Positions 18,596-46,939 of a stretch of DNA of 64,000 nucleotides are shown one piece after another. The stretch lies in contig JABFGB010000009.1 in NCBI GenBank assembly GCA_013112715.1, positions 1-64,000 on the forward strand, written 5' to 3'. Under the pieces are notes generated by a model that was not told the DNA's origin, searched no databases, and saw only the letters and a list, made by a program, of their open reading frames with translations. Positions within the stretch are counted from its first letter, which is position 1, and every line of letters starts with the position of its first letter. The position numbers and the translations under genes were made by a program. This stretch comes from Chloroflexota bacterium (GTDB lineage Bacteria > Chloroflexota > Anaerolineae > Aggregatilineales > J027).

Positions 18596-20080
18596 ATGAC
18601 TATTCGCCAGCGCCTGACCCTGTGGTATTCCAGCCTATTGATCAGCCTTATCACGATCTTTGCAATCGTGGCGTTCGGCATTCTTGATCGCACCATGCGC
18701 TCACAGGTGGATAATAATTTGCTCAGGGTCATTGACCGCGTGGAAGATTGGACTGTCCACGAGGCCCTTCGTACCGATTCAACAACGGGTGAAGTGTCTT
18801 ATACCATGTCCCCTAATCTGGAAACCATTGCTCCGGCGGATGTCTATTTGCAAATTTGGTCAGTGGATGAGTCTAAATATCCATTTAGTCAAAGCCCAAA
18901 TCTCGCCTCGCACCATGCCCCGCTTGATCCGAATGGAATGCAGTCGCACGAAGTCCGTGCGGTGGTCAATGGAAACGATTCACGGCTGCGTGTCATCTCA
19001 AGGCCGATTGTTTTTGAGGGCAAAATCGTCGGCTATATCCAAGCCGCCTCCACGATGGAAACGGTGGATTCCGCAACCAAATGGCTGATCAAGATTTTGG
19101 CACTAGAAATCTTGGTCGCGCTTATTTTGTCACTGGTGATTGGTAATTGGCTGGCACGGCGGGCACTCCATCCCATTAGCAACGTCACGCGCACTGCCAA
19201 TCAGATTTCCACCGAAAACGACCTCAGCAAACGTATCCCCTACGACGGCCCACAGGATGAATTGGGCGAATTGATTACGACCTTTAATCATATGGTCGAA
19301 CGTTTGGAAACTCTCTTTAACACCGAGCGTCGCTTTGTAGCAGATGTTTCTCATGAACTGCGCACCCCGATCACTGCCATACAGGGCAACGTGGAACTTT
19401 TGCAGCGTTTTGGGCACGACCCAGCCTCGCTCAAGGCCATCCACAGCGAAACTCAGCGTATGTCCCGTTTGGTCGGAGATTTATTGATGTTGGCCCAAGC
19501 CGATGTCGGGCATATGCCATTGATTCAAACCCACGTCCAATTAGATTCGCTTTTATTAGAGGTATACAGCCAAGCGAAAGTCTTGAGCAAAGGCCATGTT
19601 CGGGTCATAGTCAGCGAACTGGATCAAATCCGTGTTTCCGGCGACCCTGATCGCCTCAAACAGCTTTTAATGAATCTCATCACCAACGCGTTGGCCCATA
19701 CACCAGAAAACGGTGAGATTCGGTTAACCATGCAAAAAGCCGAAAAATGGGTCGAAATCAGGGTGGCCGATACCGGAGTCGGCATTTCTGCCGAAGACCT
19801 ACCTCACATTTTTGAACGCTTCTACCGTGTGGACAAATCCCGTTCACGGGACGAGGGTGGTGTTGGGTTGGGATTATCCATCGCCAAATGGATTGCTGAG
19901 GCCCATCATGGCACACTTTCCGCTGCCAGCACTATCGGGGAAGGCACAACCTTTACCCTGCGATTGCCCTTGCCGCTTGATCCCGAAAAAATGCGCGAAC
20001 ACCATGCCGAGACCGTCCCCAATTTCCCAGTCATCCGCTTAAGTCGCCACAAATCGGATAACTCAGATCCGTCCCCCTAG
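18596..20080 (+). CDS. Sensor histidine kinase
   Basis: 494 residues. One transmembrane helix near the N-terminus (about 10-30), a sensor domain outside the membrane (about 35-160), a second helix (about 163-184), a HAMP segment, a HisKA domain with phospho-His253 (DVSHELRTP), and a HATPase domain with N box (NLITNALAHTPENG), G1 (ADTGVGIS), F (HIFERFYRVD) and G2 (GVGLGLSI). It is the partner of the upstream response regulator. A TTG nine bases upstream is possible, but ATG at 18596 gives the family start MTIRQRLTLWY. The likely target is the downstream PDZ gene. Confidence 0.94.
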   Translation: MTIRQRLTLWYSSLLISLITIFAIVAFGILDRTMRSQVDNNLLRVIDRVEDWTVHEALRTDSTTGEVSYTMSPNLETIAPADVYLQIWSVDESKYPFSQSPNLASHHAPLDPNGMQSHEVRAVVNGNDSRLRVISRPIVFEGKIVGYIQAASTMETVDSATKWLIKILALEILVALILSLVIGNWLARRALHPISNVTRTANQISTENDLSKRIPYDGPQDELGELITTFNHMVERLETLFNTERRFVADVSHELRTPITAIQGNVELLQRFGHDPASLKAIHSETQRMSRLVGDLLMLAQADVGHMPLIQTHVQLDSLLLEVYSQAKVLSKGHVRVIVSELDQIRVSGDPDRLKQLLMNLITNALAHTPENGEIRLTMQKAEKWVEIRVADTGVGISAEDLPHIFERFYRVDKSRSRDEGGVGLGLSIAKWIAEAHHGTLSAASTIGEGTTFTLRLPLPLDPEKMREHHAETVPNFPVIRLSRHKSDNSDPSP

Positions 20081-33407: not shown

Positions 33408-33914
33408 ATGTTGGCCGCTGTCTGGTTCATTCTCAGCGGCATTTTTCTTTCGCGCTCCATATTAATCACACTCGGGCTGCTAAAAGGCCCCGTGCTGCGT
33501 GCCTTTGAACGATATGGAGATGAGGAGGGCGACTATAATAGCCTCCTTTATCTGCTGTTTTGGATGGGTATGTTCTCCGTGATGAGCGGCCTCTGGTTAG
33601 CACGCCTCTCCCGCAATGTCTTTTTCCCAATGGAGTTTATCGGCGTGGTTCTGCTGATCGGGTCGGCATTTGCTTACCGTAAACCCCATATTGTGGAGCG
33701 AATCTTCCATTATCCAGTTTGGTATTATGAACTTAAGGAGCGCACATCACGTTCCGAACGACGGCGCATTGCGTATATGTGGCTGCACATTTCGCGTAAG
33801 GGCAAACTCATTTACAACAGCAGTGATTTCGCCTTCAATCAATGGGCCGATCTCATCATCGTTTCGACGATTTACATTGACAATGATACGGAGGGACAGT
33901 CCCCTTCCCCTTGA
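33408..33914 (+). CDS. Predicted membrane protein of unknown function
   Basis: 168 residues with about three hydrophobic segments (3-22, 46-64, 73-90) and a charged C-terminal half (KERTSRSERRRIAYMWLHIS, then FNQWADLIIVSTIYID). The central YNSLLYLLFWMGMFSVMSGLWLARLSRN is a helical hairpin. GGGAGGTGAG gives a strong ribosome site. Its last 43 bases overlap the end of the convergent TolB-like gene. I do not recognise it. Confidence 0.72.
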   Translation: MLAAVWFILSGIFLSRSILITLGLLKGPVLRAFERYGDEEGDYNSLLYLLFWMGMFSVMSGLWLARLSRNVFFPMEFIGVVLLIGSAFAYRKPHIVERIFHYPVWYYELKERTSRSERRRIAYMWLHISRKGKLIYNSSDFAFNQWADLIIVSTIYIDNDTEGQSPSP

Positions 33915-35053
33915 AAACCTGCGGGTGACCACACCGGGGGATTGTTATTCATCGTCGTTGGCCCAAAGGTCTGCACTTCGCCCAACACTGTATCATAGAC
34001 TTGCAGTTCGTAGGCGGCGCGAAAGGCCACCCAACGTCCATCGGCGGAAAAACGCGGATAATCGTGATACTGGCTGGATGAGTCATTGATAAATAACGTT
34101 GGCAGGCCGCCATTGGGTAGAGGTAATCGCCACAACATATTGCGTGCCTCACCTCCAAAATTCTGAATCGCGGCAATGAGGGCATCTCCGGTTGGTTGCC
34201 ACACATAATCCAAAATAGTGCCTGCCTGCTCATTCACCACGATGATTGACCCTGAGCCGTCGCTGGGTATCACCATCAACTGATGAAAATTGGGCATAGT
34301 CTGATAGACAAACGCGATATAAAAATCGGTGGGCGACCAGCGCGGATTAAAGACGGCATTCTCTCCAAAGCTGGTCAAGCGAAATTTGTTTTGCCCATCA
34401 GCATTCACCACCCATAGTTCCGGTTTGCCTTCAATGGCTTCCCCACTGGCTGCTTCGGCTTCGGGGGTGGCCTCAAGCACGGGCTGATTAGAGACATAGA
34501 CCAAACGCCGACCATCGGATGACCAGCGCGGTTGTGATTCTATGCCGGAATTGGAATAAAACTGAGGAGCGCCTCCTTCGGGTGTCACCCATGCGATATG
34601 CGAGGTGCGACTGGGTTCTTGATCAGGGGGGTCATAATAGCGGATGAGGGTAAAGACAATTTTGCTGCCATCTGGCGACCACTGCGGCTCCCACGCGCGA
34701 TAGCTGAGTGCCCCTGTCGGCCCAAGTTCAAGCAGGCGGCGTAAATTGCTGCCATCCAACCGCGCGGCATACAGATCGCCATAACCCGGTCGTTGTTCCC
34801 ACGTAAAGACGATTTCACAACCATCTGGCGAAAATCCGCCAATGTAATGATTACCAGCACCAAAGGAAAGACTGCGCTGTTGGCCTGTCGCCATGTCAAT
34901 AACCAAAAACCCATCTTGCGACGGGGTATTGGTGATAACCAGCGGCCCTTGCAGCAAATCTTGGGATTGGGGCGAGGGTTCAGCCGAAACGCCAAAAGGG
35001 GGAGTCAATAAAATGACAAGCAGGCCGAGAATGCAAACACGCAGGAGTGGCAT
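33872..35053 (-). CDS. Exported TolB/PD40-type beta-propeller protein
   Basis: 393 residues. A signal peptide (about 1-24, ending GVSA) is followed by propeller blades with WSPDG motifs: GFSPDGCEIVFTW, QWSPDGSKIVFTL, RWSSDGRRLVYVSN, RWSPTDFYIAFVY, and near the end PRFSADGRWVAFRA. It is a soluble extracytoplasmic propeller without a lipobox. It starts 18 bases after the kinase-receiver gene stops, so it is the last gene of that signalling operon. It overlaps the convergent gene by 43 bases. Confidence 0.83.
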   Translation of the reverse strand: MPLLRVCILGLLVILLTPPFGVSAEPSPQSQDLLQGPLVITNTPSQDGFLVIDMATGQQRSLSFGAGNHYIGGFSPDGCEIVFTWEQRPGYGDLYAARLDGSNLRRLLELGPTGALSYRAWEPQWSPDGSKIVFTLIRYYDPPDQEPSRTSHIAWVTPEGGAPQFYSNSGIESQPRWSSDGRRLVYVSNQPVLEATPEAEAASGEAIEGKPELWVVNADGQNKFRLTSFGENAVFNPRWSPTDFYIAFVYQTMPNFHQLMVIPSDGSGSIIVVNEQAGTILDYVWQPTGDALIAAIQNFGGEARNMLWRLPLPNGGLPTLFINDSSSQYHDYPRFSADGRWVAFRAAYELQVYDTVLGEVQTFGPTTMNNNPPVWSPAGFQGEGDCPSVSLSM

Positions 35054-35071: not shown

Positions 35072-36619
35072 TTAGAATTTATGTAATTCCTCAAGGCTAA
35101 TCCACCCCGCTCGCAGCGCCATCAACGCCGCATCGGTTTTGGATTTCACCCCAAGTCGGTCAATAATCGCCATCAAGTAACGGGCGACTTCATTTTCTGG
35201 CATTCCCAATTGGTGGGCGACCTCCGGGTTATCGTAACCAGCCGCCACACACGTCAGAATGTCCTTTTCAATGGCATCCAGCGGGGTCTGGGCGGGGCCA
35301 CGTTCCAACAAGTCCTGCACCAATCTTTCGGCAACGCCATGCCCCAGCACCAAATGCCCCAACATAACATCATGCACTGATTTTTCCAATTGTTCCTCGG
35401 AACTGGCTTTCAAAACGTAGCCATGTGCGCCGGCGCGTAAAGCCTGCATGATATAGGTATTTTCATCGCGTCCGGTCAACACCAGCACTTTGACATCAGG
35501 ATAGGCTTGGCGGATACGCGGCAAAATAGCAAGGCCACTCGTGCCCGGCATATTCAAATCTAGCAGAATGACATCTGGTTTGTTTTCGCCAATCAAACGG
35601 AAGGCCTCTTCACCATCGGCGGCTTGTCCGACGACAATAAACCCCGGCACGTCTTCTAAGAAATAGGCGAGGCTCTGACGGGTCAAATTATGGTCATCCG
35701 CCAACAAAATTCGCACCGTTGGGTCGAACTTATTCAGCGGGGTGGTGGCTTTGCGATAGGGCGGCGCTTCCTCTGGTTGGGCCGCTACTGGTTTGGCTGT
35801 GGATGGCGTCGGCTCTTCTTTTAGCACGGCCTCCAGTGCATCCGCCATTTCTTTAGCCGTAGCAAACCGAGCCGCAGGTTTCTTTTCCAATGCCCGCAAA
35901 ATGGCATTTTCCAATGTCACCGGAATCCCCGGCATAATTTGACTGGGCGGGGTGGCGGCTTTCTTGACCTGTTGCAGCAAAATACTGCCTATATCATCGG
36001 CGTCGAAGGGTAGTATCCCTGTGACCATCTCATACAAGACAATCCCGGTGGAATAGAGGTCGGTGCGACGATCCAGTGGATGTCCCTGTGCCTGTTCGGG
36101 TGACAAATAGGCGGGTGTCCCAATCACCGTGCCAGCAGCGGTCAGGCGCTTAAATTCGCCATCACTGGGGATCGCCAAGCCAAAATCCATGATCTTGACT
36201 TGACCATCGGGGAGGATATAGATATTGGCGGGTTTGATGTCGCGGTGAATAAAACCGGTGTTGTGGGCGTACTCCAGCGCCAAACAAATTTGTTTGCCGA
36301 TTTCGGCCACCTGACGGGGATCGGCGGGGATTAGATTATGCAGCGGTTGCCCATTGATGTACTCGACCACCAGATAATGGTATTCGCGGTCTTTATCTAC
36401 ATCATAAATCGCCATAATGCCCGGATGATTCAGTTGGGCTGCCGAGAGGGCCTCACGTTCAAACCGTTTACGTGTGGTCTCATTGACATGCGGCATCAAC
36501 ACTTTGATGGCTACAGTACGCTGCAACCGCAAATCTTTGGCGCGATAAACAATAGCGGTTGCGCCTTCCCCCAATAATTCTTCAACCTGATAACGTTCGC
36601 CTAATATTCGACCAATCAT
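35072..36619 (-). CDS. Ser/Thr protein kinase fused to a NarL-type receiver and LuxR-type HTH
   Basis: 515 residues. Kinase domain (1-270) with P-loop GEGATAIVY (about 17-25), Lys39 in AIKV, HRD at 125-127, DFG at 145-147 and GTPAYLSPEQ. A Pro-rich linker follows, then a receiver domain (301-420) with acidic pair 308-309, Asp354 (ILLDLNMPG), Thr382 and Lys404, and a LuxR-type HTH (about 446-505: DILTCVAAGYDNPEVAHQLG). So a Hanks-type kinase and a complete NarL-type response regulator sit in one chain. The recognition helix is somewhat divergent. GAGG lies before the ATG at 36619; the frame to 36754 overlaps the GAF gene. Confidence 0.9.
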   Translation of the reverse strand: MIGRILGERYQVEELLGEGATAIVYRAKDLRLQRTVAIKVLMPHVNETTRKRFEREALSAAQLNHPGIMAIYDVDKDREYHYLVVEYINGQPLHNLIPADPRQVAEIGKQICLALEYAHNTGFIHRDIKPANIYILPDGQVKIMDFGLAIPSDGEFKRLTAAGTVIGTPAYLSPEQAQGHPLDRRTDLYSTGIVLYEMVTGILPFDADDIGSILLQQVKKAATPPSQIMPGIPVTLENAILRALEKKPAARFATAKEMADALEAVLKEEPTPSTAKPVAAQPEEAPPYRKATTPLNKFDPTVRILLADDHNLTRQSLAYFLEDVPGFIVVGQAADGEEAFRLIGENKPDVILLDLNMPGTSGLAILPRIRQAYPDVKVLVLTGRDENTYIMQALRAGAHGYVLKASSEEQLEKSVHDVMLGHLVLGHGVAERLVQDLLERGPAQTPLDAIEKDILTCVAAGYDNPEVAHQLGMPENEVARYLMAIIDRLGVKSKTDAALMALRAGWISLEELHKF

Positions 36620-36695: not shown

Positions 36696-37292
36696 TTAGG
36701 TATGGGTCTCAAATTTCTTGGCATTATGCAGTGCCAATGCGGATTGGTCGGCAAGACTGGACACCACGTTTAAATGTGCCCGTGAATAGCGCCCGATGGC
36801 CCTTTTGCCATCTACATATAACAAACCAATCACTTCGCCCCTAATCAGCAAAGGGGAACACATGACCGTGCGTAATTGCAATTGCTGAATACTAATATTA
36901 TTTTTCAGCGACTCATCGGTTTGGGCATCCGGCACTACCACCGCCCCGCCTTTTTCAAGGGTCTTTTCAATCACACCGCTAGAGGGGGTAAAAAGTTCCG
37001 CCGGAATATATTGGTGATTGCTGTCGCGTCCCATCTTATAACGCATCGCCCCATCATCATCCGTCATCATGAGAAAGGCCCGATCACCATCAGCAAATGC
37101 AACCATGCTGTCCAAGACAAAGGTAATCAGTTCGCGGGTATCTCGAATATTGTGAATCGTCTTGGTGACTTCCAAGAGCATTTGCAGCGCCAGCAATTCA
37201 TTAATATCCCGGCGCTCTTCTGTCCACGTCATAGCCTGACGGACTTCTTCCAAAATACGATCCACATCTTTTAAGCGGTCATCATTTGACAT
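36696..37292 (-). CDS. GAF domain protein
   Basis: 198 residues. A helical N-terminus (1-35) leads into one GAF domain (about 38-190): LLALQMLLEVTKTIHNIRDTREL, DGDRAFLMMTDDDGAM, VMCSPLLIRGEVIGLLYVDG and a closing LADQSALALHNA. There is no output domain, so it probably senses a ligand or redox state and passes the signal to a partner. The kinase-receiver protein encoded 76 bases downstream is the obvious candidate. Confidence 0.87.
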   Translation of the reverse strand: MSNDDRLKDVDRILEEVRQAMTWTEERRDINELLALQMLLEVTKTIHNIRDTRELITFVLDSMVAFADGDRAFLMMTDDDGAMRYKMGRDSNHQYIPAELFTPSSGVIEKTLEKGGAVVVPDAQTDESLKNNISIQQLQLRTVMCSPLLIRGEVIGLLYVDGKRAIGRYSRAHLNVVSSLADQSALALHNAKKFETHT

Positions 37293-37296
37293 GAAT

Positions 37297-37929
37297 TTAT
37301 CCTCCGCGTTTCATCCCTCTAGCGTACAGGGCCAACCCAATCCCGACACGTTCTCGGGTTTCGGTTAGTTGCAGCCCCACTGTTTGGAATAGTTCTGCAA
37401 TCTGTTTTGGTGACCAGCGTACTTTGGACTCGGCGATTTCGCCCCAATGAATAAAATTCTCGCGGGCAAATCCGATTAATCCCCTCTCGTCGGCCAATGC
37501 CGTCGCACTGGCGATGGTCATTTGAGGAGACGGATTTAACATCACGAATGTTCCGCCCGACCTCAGCATTCGAACCATTTCCTGTAGGGCGGGCAGTACC
37601 TCATCCAATAAATATAGCACGTTGGTCGCGGTCACTACATCAAATTGTTTGGTTTGGAACGGCAGTTGATAGACACTACCGCAGACAAAAACCTCCCCAA
37701 TGGCTTGATAGTGGAGCGCATGGGCCATCAATAAGGGATCGGCATCCACACCAAACGCCTCGGCTTGATATTGCTCTCGAAACAGCTTGACCAGTGCCCC
37801 CGGCCCAGTCCCCACATCCAGTACCCGTGATCCGGCTGGTGGAGCGACAAAACGGGCAAAACTTTCCAGAATCGTTGTCCACCCGGTTTGGGTCTGCATC
37901 GAAATGTAGTATTCGCCCTGATCCATCAA
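37297..37929 (-). CDS. Class I SAM-dependent methyltransferase
   Basis: 210 residues. Motif I RVLDVGTGPGALVKLF, then AFGVDADPLLM, CGSVYQLPFQTKQFDVVTATNVLYLL and LRSGGTFVMLNPSP. It has the Methyltransf_11 layout and an unknown substrate. Its start overlaps the stop of the upstream membrane-protein gene by four bases (ATGA), and the GAF gene follows after four bases, so the genes are translationally coupled. Confidence 0.85.
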   Translation of the reverse strand: MMDQGEYYISMQTQTGWTTILESFARFVAPPAGSRVLDVGTGPGALVKLFREQYQAEAFGVDADPLLMAHALHYQAIGEVFVCGSVYQLPFQTKQFDVVTATNVLYLLDEVLPALQEMVRMLRSGGTFVMLNPSPQMTIASATALADERGLIGFARENFIHWGEIAESKVRWSPKQIAELFQTVGLQLTETRERVGIGLALYARGMKRGG

Positions 37930-38903
37930 TATTCCTCACGCGCCAACTGGGTGAAGGCCCGAATCCCGATTAACACGGATACCACTGGTAGCCAGATCGC
38001 CCCAAAAAAGGCTAAGAGGCCAAACAAAACCGTTGTCTGAATCGGATTATCTCCGTCCTGCGACAGATGATGGCCTGCCCAACCCATTAACATAAACGCA
38101 ATGAGCATGTATATCCAACCATAGAGTAGCGGCTGTCGGGGGGGATTCAACAACCGCAGCCAATTTTCTTTGTGCGTCTGCCGTGTAAACCACAAAATCA
38201 GGACGATCATGGTGATAATCATTGCCACCAATGCTGTTCCAACGCCGGGAATGCTTCCATCCGCCAAACGCAGCACCATTGTTAAACCTAAAATGCCACC
38301 CGCCGCTGCCCATTCATACGGTTCTAGCAGCCAATCTTGATACGACATCTTTTTGGGTGGGGGCACCACAAACAGCACCAGCAAATTTCCCAACAGGGCA
38401 ATGACCACCGCAGGCAGGGCTGTATCTAAACTAGGGACTGTCTGTTGGACATGTTCAAGTTCAGGATACCCGCGTACCCAGATGCCCCAACCAAGTCCCA
38501 CCAACGCCGCCAGCCCCACCAGCCATGCCGAGGCGGGACGGGCCGTGCTGAGATAGAGAAATGAGCCAAACGCCAACAAAAACATCACCGTCTCAAGCCC
38601 AGTGCCGTAAAACACAAGGCTAATCGGCAGGTTATCAAAAAGACGGGCTGAGATGAGGGCACTTTCCGTTAAACCAAAAATCCCGGCGACCAGCAGCAGG
38701 CCCAAAACATCTTGAACATGCCAGCGCACGATCACGTCTAACAAAATCGCCGCCATTGCAAAATAGAGACCGATAAGCGCCATCCAGTCGAAAGCGTCAT
38801 ATTGGCTTGCGTGCTGCCATGCCACCAGTTCACCAAAGACCAGCAGCAAGAGTCCGAAGCCCACGCGGGGAATCCAAGTGAGTAATCGTTGTCGGTTTAG
38901 CAT
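37926..38903 (-). CDS. Polytopic membrane protein of unknown function
   Basis: About 325 residues with about ten transmembrane helices spread over the whole length and short polar loops (PPPKKMSYQDWLLEPYEW, RQTHKENWLRLLNPPRQ). No family signature is visible. The open frame reaches 39035, but its first 44 codons are basic and lack membrane character; ATG at 38903 starts right before the first helix, without a clear Shine-Dalgarno sequence. It is the first gene of the operon ending at 33872. Confidence 0.72.
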   Translation of the reverse strand: MLNRQRLLTWIPRVGFGLLLLVFGELVAWQHASQYDAFDWMALIGLYFAMAAILLDVIVRWHVQDVLGLLLVAGIFGLTESALISARLFDNLPISLVFYGTGLETVMFLLAFGSFLYLSTARPASAWLVGLAALVGLGWGIWVRGYPELEHVQQTVPSLDTALPAVVIALLGNLLVLFVVPPPKKMSYQDWLLEPYEWAAAGGILGLTMVLRLADGSIPGVGTALVAMIITMIVLILWFTRQTHKENWLRLLNPPRQPLLYGWIYMLIAFMLMGWAGHHLSQDGDNPIQTTVLFGLLAFFGAIWLPVVSVLIGIRAFTQLAREEY

Positions 38904-39024
38904 GGCAGAGATTATAAAGTGCTTTCTTATAGACTGCGAAAAGATAATGCGTTGATGTTGCCTTCGACTACGAGTATACTTTTCAGATATACGACGGGCA
39001 AAGTAGGCAAGCGAGTTTTGGCAT

Positions 39025-39960
39025 ATGAAGTACATGGACTATTATAAAATCCTTGGGGTAACACGCGAGGCGGATGAAAAAGAAATCAAAAAAGCCTATC
39101 GCCAACTCGCCCGCCAATATCACCCGGATATGAACCCCAACAACGAACAAGCCGCCGAACGCTTTAAGGAAATCAACGAAGCCTATCAAGTTTTGAGCGA
39201 CCCCGAAAAACGCGCCCGTTATGACCAGCTTGGCCCCAATTTCCATCTGCGTACAACGGGTACGGCAGCGGGTTTTGATTGGGGGCGCTGGGCCAGAAGC
39301 ACGAGTCCAAGTTCTACTCAACAGCAGAAACGCCGAACCACCCGCATTGAATATGATAATACAGGTGGCGGTCTTTTTTCAGATTTTTTTAACGCTATTT
39401 TTGGGGAAGGCACCCGCACCAACGAAACCACCAATAAGCAACCCATTCGTGGCAAAGATATTGAAGTCACTGTCGCCGTCAGCCTAGAAGAAGCCTATCA
39501 CGGCACCAAGCGGCAGGTGAATCAGGGTAATCGCCAATTCACCGCCCATATCCCACGCGGCGCACGCACGGGCACGAAGGTGCGTTTTGCTGGACAGGGC
39601 GAACGGGGCTATGCCGGGGGTGAGGCAGGCGACCTCTATATCGTCGTCGCGGTTGATCCTCATCCGACCTTTGACCGGGATGGTGATGATCTTTCGGTTG
39701 ATCTCAAAGTGCCGCTGTATACCGCCATTTTTGGGGGAGATGTCCGCGTCACCACGATGAATGGGGATGTCAAATTGCGGATTCCCCCCGGAGCACAATC
39801 CGGTCAGCGGATTCGGCTGCAAGGCAAGGGAATGCCAACTCTGCGTGATAAAGACCAGTTTGGTGATTTTTACGTAAGGGTGATGGTACAGATACCGACC
39901 AATCTAAGTAACGAAGAATTGGAATTATTTGAACAACTCCGCGAATTGCGACCGGAATAG
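39025..39960 (+). CDS. DnaJ-class co-chaperone, CbpA type
   Basis: 311 residues. J domain (1-70) with the HPD motif (YHPDMNP) and the [14 protein letters not shown] helix, a Gly-poor linker, then two C-terminal substrate-binding domains (about 130-305: [61 protein letters not shown]). There is no CxxCxGxG zinc region, so it is a CbpA-like rather than DnaJ-type protein. It stimulates Hsp70. Starts at 39025 and 39034 (DYYKILG) are both possible. It ends 16 bases before the HtrA gene. Confidence 0.92.
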
Positions 39961-44434: not shown

Positions 44435-46939
44435 TTATGATGGCGCTATAGTATCAGCAGCACAGCGAAAACCATAGGTTTCCCCGGCCACAAATGGGCT
44501 GTCGGAAGCGCGTGCCGTTGTGCGAAAATCAGCAACGGTAGTAATCCCATCCGCCGATGGCCCTCCGCCGCGCAGCACCCGCATATCGCCCCGTCGTGGG
44601 CCAGTGGGGTTTTCTTCAGTGCTTTCCGAATAGTAGGTATCGCTAAACCAATCTTGTACCCATTCACGGGCATTACCAGCCATATCCAATAACCCAAAGG
44701 GGCTTACTCCGTTTGGATATGTTCCTACAGCAACCATGCTGCCCGCATTAATGTCATTCACATTGGCCGGAGTCGTTCCTTCGACCACTAACTCATTGCC
44801 CCAAGGATATTGGCGACCATCCGTCCCACGCGCCGCAAATTCCCACTCGGCTTCGGTTGGCAGGCGTTTTCCGGCCCATTCACAATAGGCCACTGCGCCT
44901 TCCCATGTCACACCCGTCACGGGGAATTGCTCCTCGCCTTCCGCAAAACGGGCCAATTCCGAGGCGGGGCGTTGGATAATGGTCACTTCATCGGAATACA
45001 AATTGAGCCATGCGGGGGGTACTTCTGGGGCGATTTCGCCGGGATTACTGTTCGGGCGACCATCATAGCCGCTGCCTGAGCCTTGAAAGAGCAAAATCAT
45101 AATCTCATAGCCATCAGGGTCAACATAACCATCGGCGGGGTTTGCCAAAGAGTAGCAGCATGTCCCATCAGCTTTTAAGATGCGGCCTTCAGCATCTCGC
45201 ACGCGATGCGTGACCATGACATGTGCCCCAATATCGAAATAGAGTTGCTCATCGCCAACATACACATCAGCCGACCCCCATGTTGAAACGGGTGAGACAA
45301 TCAGCGGCAAAAAGCTGCCTTCCTGTCCACTATCCCCGTGCATGAGTACATGGTCGCCAACCCCCCCCTCTTGAAAGGATGAGGTTTCAAAAAAGACACG
45401 CTGCTCGATCCGAATATCCCCTTCAACCTCAAGGCCACTTTCGGGGGTAATTTTGCCCGTAAACTCAGCAATAACCTCACCTTCGTTGGTATCGGCGTCC
45501 AAGTTAATGGTGATCTTGCCATCCGCGTATGGCGTAATTTCCTCGCCGTCATAGGACTGGCGATTATCAATATTGCCGACTACATAGATATTGTTGCCTT
45601 CGACTTCCCACACCGAGGGTTCGGCGCGTACCCATGTCGAGGGTTCGGGGGAGCCGGTTTCGACCACAAACTGCATATACTGTTCGTTGGTGACTTCGGT
45701 TAAGTCCATAAAATAGGGGGATAGGGTAACGCGGTGAGAAGGGCTTTCTGCTTCCTCGCCACTACTGGATCCCATGTTAAATGTCCCGCCGGGGATATAG
45801 GCCATACCAGCCGGAGCAGACGGGTTCGGCTCTTCTTTGTCGGCCTCGTCTTGATTATCGTCTCCCCCCAGAAGCACCCACAGGAGTGCCAGTACCGCGA
45901 TCAAAACCACCGCCGCCGACACGCCTCCCAACAAAAATGTATTACGCTGGTGGGACTGGGTAACAATATTTGGTACCGAGGGACGCGACCCTTCTGGAAT
46001 CACGATGGTGTTATGGGTCATATCTATCTGGGCGGTGGCACGTGGCATGGCCGATTGGGTGATCTCTTGGGTGCTGACAAAAATGGTCTTGTCCGACAAA
46101 TCACCGGAATTGGCATCTAGTTCTTTAATCATCTCCTCAACCGTGCCATAACGCTGTTCGGGGTCTTTGGCAAGCGCCCGCAAAATAACCGCCTCGGTGC
46201 GAAAATCCAGCGACTCGACGGCCTTGCTGGGGCGGGGGGGTTGGGCTTGGATATGCTGAATGAGCACATTGGCAAATGAATCGCCTTTAAAGGGCACGTC
46301 GCCCGTCACCATCTCATATAACACAATACCCAGCGAATAAATATCGGTGCGCGGGGTGATTTCCTGTCCCGATGCTTGTTCCGGGGCCATATAAGCAGGT
46401 GTACCGGAACTTGTGCCTGTTGCCGTTAGCCGCACATGTCCGGCCAGCTTTGCCAAGCCGAAATCGGTGAGAACAGCCCGATCTCCTACCAGCACAATAT
46501 TGGCGGGCTTGATGTCGCGGTGAATCACCCCATTTTTATGGGCATAGTCCACGGCCATGCCAATTTGTCGAAAAATGCTCATGGCACGCGCAATAGGCAT
46601 CCCGTTGGGATGGTCGGAAATCAATTCTCGTAAGGTACTCCCCTCCAAAATTTCCATCACCATGTAATAAATATTGCCCTGTACCTCAAAATCATAGACC
46701 CGCACGATGTTGGGATGTGATAATCGTCCGGCGGCTTGGGCTTCCTGTCGAAATCGTACTGACCCATCTTTGCTATCCACAATCGCGGGGTGCAGCACCT
46801 TGATGGCGACATCTTGGCCTATGTCGGGATTATGCGCCCGGTAGACTTCCGCCATGCCGCCGCGCCCTAATAGCCCTTTAATCTCATATTTGCCCAGTTT
46901 AAAACCGGGCTTCAAATAACTTAGTGGCGCTTCAGTCAT
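44435..46939 (-). CDS. Transmembrane Ser/Thr kinase fused to an interrupted FGE-sulfatase (SUMF1-like) domain
   Basis: 834 residues. Cytoplasmic kinase domain (about 18-280) with GRGGMAEVY, Lys47, HRD at 140-142, DFG at 159-161 and [10 protein letters not shown]. Transmembrane helix about 335-357. Outside, an FGE-sulfatase domain begins at 378 ([14 protein letters not shown], then [16 protein letters not shown]) and resumes at about 670 ([31 protein letters not shown], later [13 protein letters not shown] and VLRGGG). Between them, about 440-665, lies an insert rich in beta strands that is not part of the usual fold. The product is likely a receptor kinase whose sensor is a modified FGE domain. 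Confidence 0.9.

Follow-up and report, generated by a model that had tools for sequence, protein, structure and literature searches.

The protein encoded at positions 35072..36619 (minus strand) of the window, the 64 000 nucleotide stretch of Chloroflexota DNA analysed here, is probably (at a probability of about 0.55) a response regulator whose output is a Hanks-type kinase and not transcription, with the receiver and a helix-turn-helix (HTH) that would not bind DNA serving as a switch or dimerization module. The open reading frame encodes 515 residues and a stop codon; it begins with an ATG at 36619, immediately 5′ of which is the Shine–Dalgarno-like sequence GAGGA, and the stop codon ends at 35072. 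Pfam profiles match a Pkinase domain (residues 10–253, 165 bits), a Response_reg domain (residues 304–415, 103 bits) and a GerE domain (residues 451–501), the last being degenerate and the weakest of the three, at 33.7 bits where the cut-off is 23.5. Residues 271–299 (35723..35809, minus strand) form a variable linker predicted with low confidence. The preliminary description gave the coordinates and the three-domain architecture of kinase, NarL receiver and LuxR HTH correctly, and left the strand unstated. Judging from its sequence, both the Hanks kinase and the receiver are intact, and by the Pfam assignments a receiver and a catalytic domain share one polypeptide, as would be expected of a response regulator with an enzymatic output. 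Among more than 30 kinase-domain matches and many receiver matches in its own genome, the full architecture is found in this gene only.

The kinase domain (35861..36592, minus strand) is PknB-like by Pfam, conservation and Foldseek, the Foldseek match to PknB having an E-value of 1.9e-27 and 41 % identity. All of the Hanks-type motifs are present (catalytic Lys, helix-C Glu, HRD, Asn, D(F/L)G and PE), and K39, E56, H125-R126-D127, K129, N132, D145, G147, T160 and P174-E175 are invariant in 42 orthologues and in L038, a separate fusion protein from another order; the earlier claim that no catalytic residue is missing thus holds in every sequence compared. The invariant activation-loop Thr160 (36140..36142, minus strand) aligns with PknB Thr171. 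Residues R9 and L32, both invariant, and D73, conserved in at least 90 % of sequences, align with PknB R10, L33 and D76, the residues that work on PknB associates with the back-to-back N-lobe dimer; since such residues occur widely among PknB-like kinases, they are consistent with activation driven by dimerization and are no proof of it. The NCBIfam model for PASTA-type PknB/Stk1 proteins (NF033483) scores 341 bits against the at least 450 called for, matching the kinase part only, and Pfam finds no PASTA repeats in the 515 residues. We note that, within the genome, the kinase domain most similar to this one (45 % identity) lies 10 kb away in the window (46112–46891) and belongs to a serine/threonine kinase with an 836-residue open frame.

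The receiver (residues 304–415; 35375..35710, minus strand) belongs by Pfam and alignment to the NarL family and has the acidic pair, phospho-acceptor Asp, Thr and Lys expected of it. D308, D309, D354 and K404 are found in all 43 sequences (the 42 orthologues and L038), and T382 in 42, with a single replacement by Ser; the preliminary description had numbered D354, T382 and K404 exactly. The full invariance of the phosphorylation site, Asp354 (35558..35560, minus strand), argues for its use. The key residues of both kinase and receiver are kept even at approximately 50 % sequence identity.

The C-terminal domain is different in character. Residues 449–505 (35105..35275, minus strand) constitute, by Pfam, AF2 and alignment, a GerE-like four-helix HTH whose fold is present without its DNA-contact residues. 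The four helices (449–459, 464–471, 475–489 and 494–504) are predicted by AF2 with high confidence (pLDDT ~90), in agreement with the Pfam match to the GerE fold. When the receiver and HTH are modelled alone (pLDDT 87, pTM 0.80) the model matches the full-length NarL-family proteins ChrA, LiaR, VraR, DesR and NarL, with a high rmsd and a different placement of the domains. We scored five canonical DNA-contact positions (450R, 465K/R, 477T/S, 479K/R and 481H/Y) in the 42 orthologues and in 18 NarL-type paralogues from the same genome; all 42 orthologues have none or one of the five, whereas the paralogues have between two and five. The Arg before helix 1 (450R) is present in one of 42 orthologues and 18 of 18 paralogues, the helix-2 Lys/Arg at 465 in 0/42 and 10/18, Thr/Ser at 477 in 8/42 and 18/18, Lys/Arg at 479 in 1/42 and 11/18, and His/Tyr at 481 in 7/42 and 17/18, respectively; the conserved set of LuxR/GerE contacts, with Arg before helix 1 and a T-V-K-x-H recognition helix, occurs in none of the 42 orthologues. 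The base-contacting residues of NarL are K188, V189 and K192, and the residues aligned with these are A479, R480 and M483.

The degenerate recognition helix (residues 475–489; 35153..35197, minus strand) is among the most variable parts across the orthologues. Mean column entropy at the contact positions is 2.65 bits in the orthologues and 1.19 bits in the diverse paralogues, the opposite of what would be expected from relatedness alone, whereas helix 4 and the conserved tail that follows it (W/L-I-x-L-E/D-D/E-L-H; 35075..35104, minus strand) have an entropy of 0.84 bits in the orthologues compared with 2.5 in the paralogues. Conservation has shifted from the DNA face to helix 4 and the tail at the C-terminus. 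The orthologous HTHs are also acidic, with a mean net charge of −1.9 (range −5 to +1) and a mean pI of 5.4, compared with +2.2 and 9.05 in the paralogues. As far as these alignments can tell, the HTH of this family has decayed on its DNA face and retained its fold. The preliminary description had supposed that eukaryotic-type and two-component signalling converge on one DNA-binding protein, and had named an HTH without DNA-binding residues in all homologues as the finding that would speak against it; such an HTH is what we see across the whole orthologous family, the homologues with a canonical HTH being only separate fusions from other lineages. The joining of kinase and receiver in one chain stands, but the DNA binding is not supported.

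Since the DNA-contact residues have been lost in every relative, a kinase switched by its receiver is more probable than a gene regulator. In the scheme that we propose, a histidine kinase whose gene lies elsewhere in the genome would phosphorylate Asp354, upon which the receiver and the LuxR-type helical domain, off DNA, would rearrange or dimerize; two PknB-like kinase domains would be brought together and would trans-phosphorylate Thr160, and the activated, soluble kinase would then phosphorylate cytoplasmic substrates. We infer that control runs from receiver to kinase, that dimerization is the mechanism, and that a histidine kinase is the partner and cytoplasmic proteins are the substrates. 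Support for a kinase gated by its receiver comes from the invariance of the kinase and receiver residues, the loss of the DNA face, the kept fold and the conservation of helix 4 and tail, as well as from the precedent of SypE (see below) and the histidine kinases encoded beside the kinase–receiver proteins of other lineages, and a review describes PknB-type kinases as being activated by dimerization (PMC6213207). Counted against it is that no histidine kinase was found adjoining approximately 20 orthologues using a HisKA_3 query, by which kinases of another type might be overlooked. With a little less than even confidence we extend this reading to a whole order of bacteria possessing a response regulator that gives its output solely through a Hanks kinase, in which a former LuxR domain, evolved from that of a transcription factor, would now be a dimerization or docking module controlled by phosphorylation.

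Other explanations would assign the degenerate domain a different role. That the protein is a genuine DNA-binding transcription factor at which both types of signalling converge is quite unlikely; it would account for a GerE score above the Pfam cut-off and for the predicted four-helix fold, and the independent fusions L038 and L151 do have canonical HTHs, but 42 of 42 orthologues with an acidic domain, no set of contact residues and a highly variable recognition helix are difficult to reconcile with it. The domain could bind DNA or RNA via another surface. That it is a protein-interaction tail for another NarL-family regulator or for RNA polymerase, delivering the kinase to a transcription complex, is likewise quite unlikely. 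The strong conservation of helix 4, the usual LuxR dimer helix, and the family-specific tail would suit such a role; homodimerization would, however, give the same pattern more simply, and no partner has been identified.

The relationship between kinase and receiver could also be a different one, with the kinase being the input and modifying its own receiver or HTH, or with the receiver merely acting as a brake on the kinase, Asp354 receiving its phosphoryl group from acetyl phosphate or from several different histidine kinases. We regard this as unlikely. Self-modification is kept as a rival because a review describes phosphorylation in trans, by Hanks kinases, of two NarL-family regulators, VraR and DosR (PMC4601284), and the absence of a histidine kinase nearby would fit it as well, but the fully invariant Asp is an argument for its phosphorylation being used, and the HTH offers no conspicuous conserved Ser or Thr as a target. 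The receiver-gated kinase is the reading that we prefer.

The family is single-copy in the window's order and essentially absent elsewhere in the class. An architecture search, as the preliminary description had suggested, finds the full-length three-domain protein once per genome in 94 of the 151 genomes of the order, a recurrence that argues against a chance fusion or an assembly artefact. The orthologues span 45 of the 61 genera at 48–99 % identity, one full-length example (L053) being in 'Anaerolineae bacterium RH21', and a few matches are broken at contig ends. Outside the order, a class-wide sample of 199 genomes yields a single match above threshold (L038, in genome G042), and L151 (in genome G605) is the one additional match with all three domains from 400 genomes sampled across the phylum.

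L038 (1501–4010, minus strand; same class, another order) and L151 (1–3096; another family of the phylum) each contain a gene for a HisKA_3 histidine kinase followed closely, on the same strand, by one for a kinase–receiver–GerE protein, and the HTHs of both are canonical (TVKNH and KTVRN, respectively). Other outputs are found elsewhere: a Terriglobia metagenome-assembled genome has, at L055:4970–7596, a gene for a LytS-type histidine kinase, apparently the cognate sensor, and after it one for a Hanks kinase–receiver–LytTR protein, and Hanks kinase–receiver–HD-GYP proteins come from a Planctomycetia metagenome-assembled genome (L118:1935–4187) and from a different family within the window's phylum (L152:1378–3333). 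These proteins resemble the window protein in having an N-terminal Hanks kinase and a complete response regulator. Unlike the window's family, L038, L151 and L055 adjoin histidine kinases, and the kinases of the other fusions do not belong to the clade of the family. The kinase tree recovers this family as a single clade (100/98), with L038 and L151 outside it and L055 grouping with Acidobacteria kinases; the receiver–HTH tree likewise recovers a single clade (100/100), whose long stem lies amid canonical NarL regulators. L038 and L151 were considered as possible ancestors that retain an intact HTH, but neither the kinase nor the receiver tree places them with the family, although the long branches make this placement tentative. 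From the separate placement of L055, L038 and L151 it appears that an entire response regulator has several times acquired a Hanks kinase at its N-terminus, the deep placement of the long branches being unsure, and similar fusions are seen in several phyla with apparently separate origins. The outputs of the other fusions look intact, and loss of the DNA face is, on present alignments, a peculiarity of the window's family. L151 and L038, with their intact HTHs, would be an easier experimental system for the idea of a DNA-binding protein with dual signals.

The kinase–receiver gene is the fourth in a same-strand cluster (minus strand) that starts with a 369-residue protein without a Pfam match (37926..39035) and continues with a methyltransferase (37297..37929) and, directly upstream, a GAF-domain protein identified by Pfam (36696..37292); the last gene encodes a PD40 beta-propeller with an apparent N-terminal signal sequence (33872..35053). 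The cluster is common to near relatives and to two genomes of the same family, G007 and G009, of which G007 is without the PD40 gene. The GAF protein that the preliminary description saw in the operon is real, but its adjacency is limited to the window's own family; as a conserved operon partner the cluster was rejected, being found in that family only (the GAF gene in two genera) and absent elsewhere. The operon contains no histidine kinase, as had also been noted, and the nearest HATPase_c match on the contig is at window position 19640, approximately 15 kb away.

A partner might be encoded elsewhere in the genome, which has 14 HisKA_3 kinases; by comparison of coordinates 12 of these apparently have a receiver or response regulator nearby, which leaves one at a contig edge and one clear orphan on contig C16 (G000:C16:42899–44488; L178:1900–3489). 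The orphan has the organization TM-GAF-HisKA_3-HATPase, the TM part being judged by eye, and at 39 loci in the order and class it had no adjacent receiver. In the 151 genomes of the order it occurs together with the kinase–receiver protein in 88, both are absent from 50, and 13 are discordant; the odds ratio of ~105 (at E 1e-82, without phylogenetic correction) is inflated by co-absence in signalling-poor genomes. Two other HisKA_3 kinases, present in 10 and 12 of the 151 genomes, show no such co-occurrence. Outside the order, the C16 kinase also occurs in approximately 70 of the class genomes sampled, and almost all of these lack the kinase–receiver protein, so the pairing is not specific, and this wide presence undercuts the C16 kinase as an established partner on the grounds of orphan status and co-occurrence. 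It is a weak candidate, and may be a general kinase that the window receiver uses, or unrelated. As separate observations, the genome also encodes a 607-residue protein (L180:1047–2870, contig C28 of G000) that is apparently a complete two-component system in one chain (receiver-HisKA_3-HATPase-receiver-GerE), and within the order many genomes of one signalling-poor genus (g31, family f2) have only ~9–18 kinase or receiver candidates, compared with 60–270 in most relatives, and mostly lack both the kinase–receiver protein and the C16 orphan.

We found no description of the kinase–receiver–HTH architecture in the open-access literature searched, and the words receiver, LuxR and helix-turn-helix are absent from a survey of bacterial serine/threonine kinase architectures (PMC1262709). 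Two-component systems and eukaryote-like kinases are known to cross-talk mainly through phosphorylation of one protein by another, whereas here both chemistries reside in one conserved protein, so that point mutants at single residues (D354, K39 and T160) can show which way control runs. If the receiver-gated reading is true, the protein would be a single-protein wire from histidine–aspartate to serine/threonine signalling, derived from a transcription factor. It would also illustrate how a DNA-binding domain can be kept for its shape after its DNA contacts are lost.

With the PknB/PrkC family the window protein shares the fold and all of the catalytic motifs, at approximately 40 % identity to Mycobacterium tuberculosis PknB, but it has neither PASTA repeats nor an evident membrane anchor, the receiver and HTH replacing the sensor part. 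It has the same receiver residues, domain order and fold as the NarL/FixJ regulators (NarL, VraR, DesR and LiaR), to which it adds the N-terminal kinase and from which it differs in an HTH without DNA-contact residues. HstK of Anabaena has a Hanks kinase and a histidine kinase in one protein, and like the window protein it unites a Hanks kinase with two-component parts, although the partner is a histidine kinase and not a receiver. A precedent for the proposed control is SypE of Vibrio fischeri, in which a receiver gates an attached serine kinase and receiver phosphorylation presumably turns the kinase output off (PMC3610818). SypE, however, combines an HPK/RsbW-like serine kinase with a PP2C phosphatase, whereas Pfam gives Pkinase and GerE for the window protein, whose kinase is of the Hanks type.
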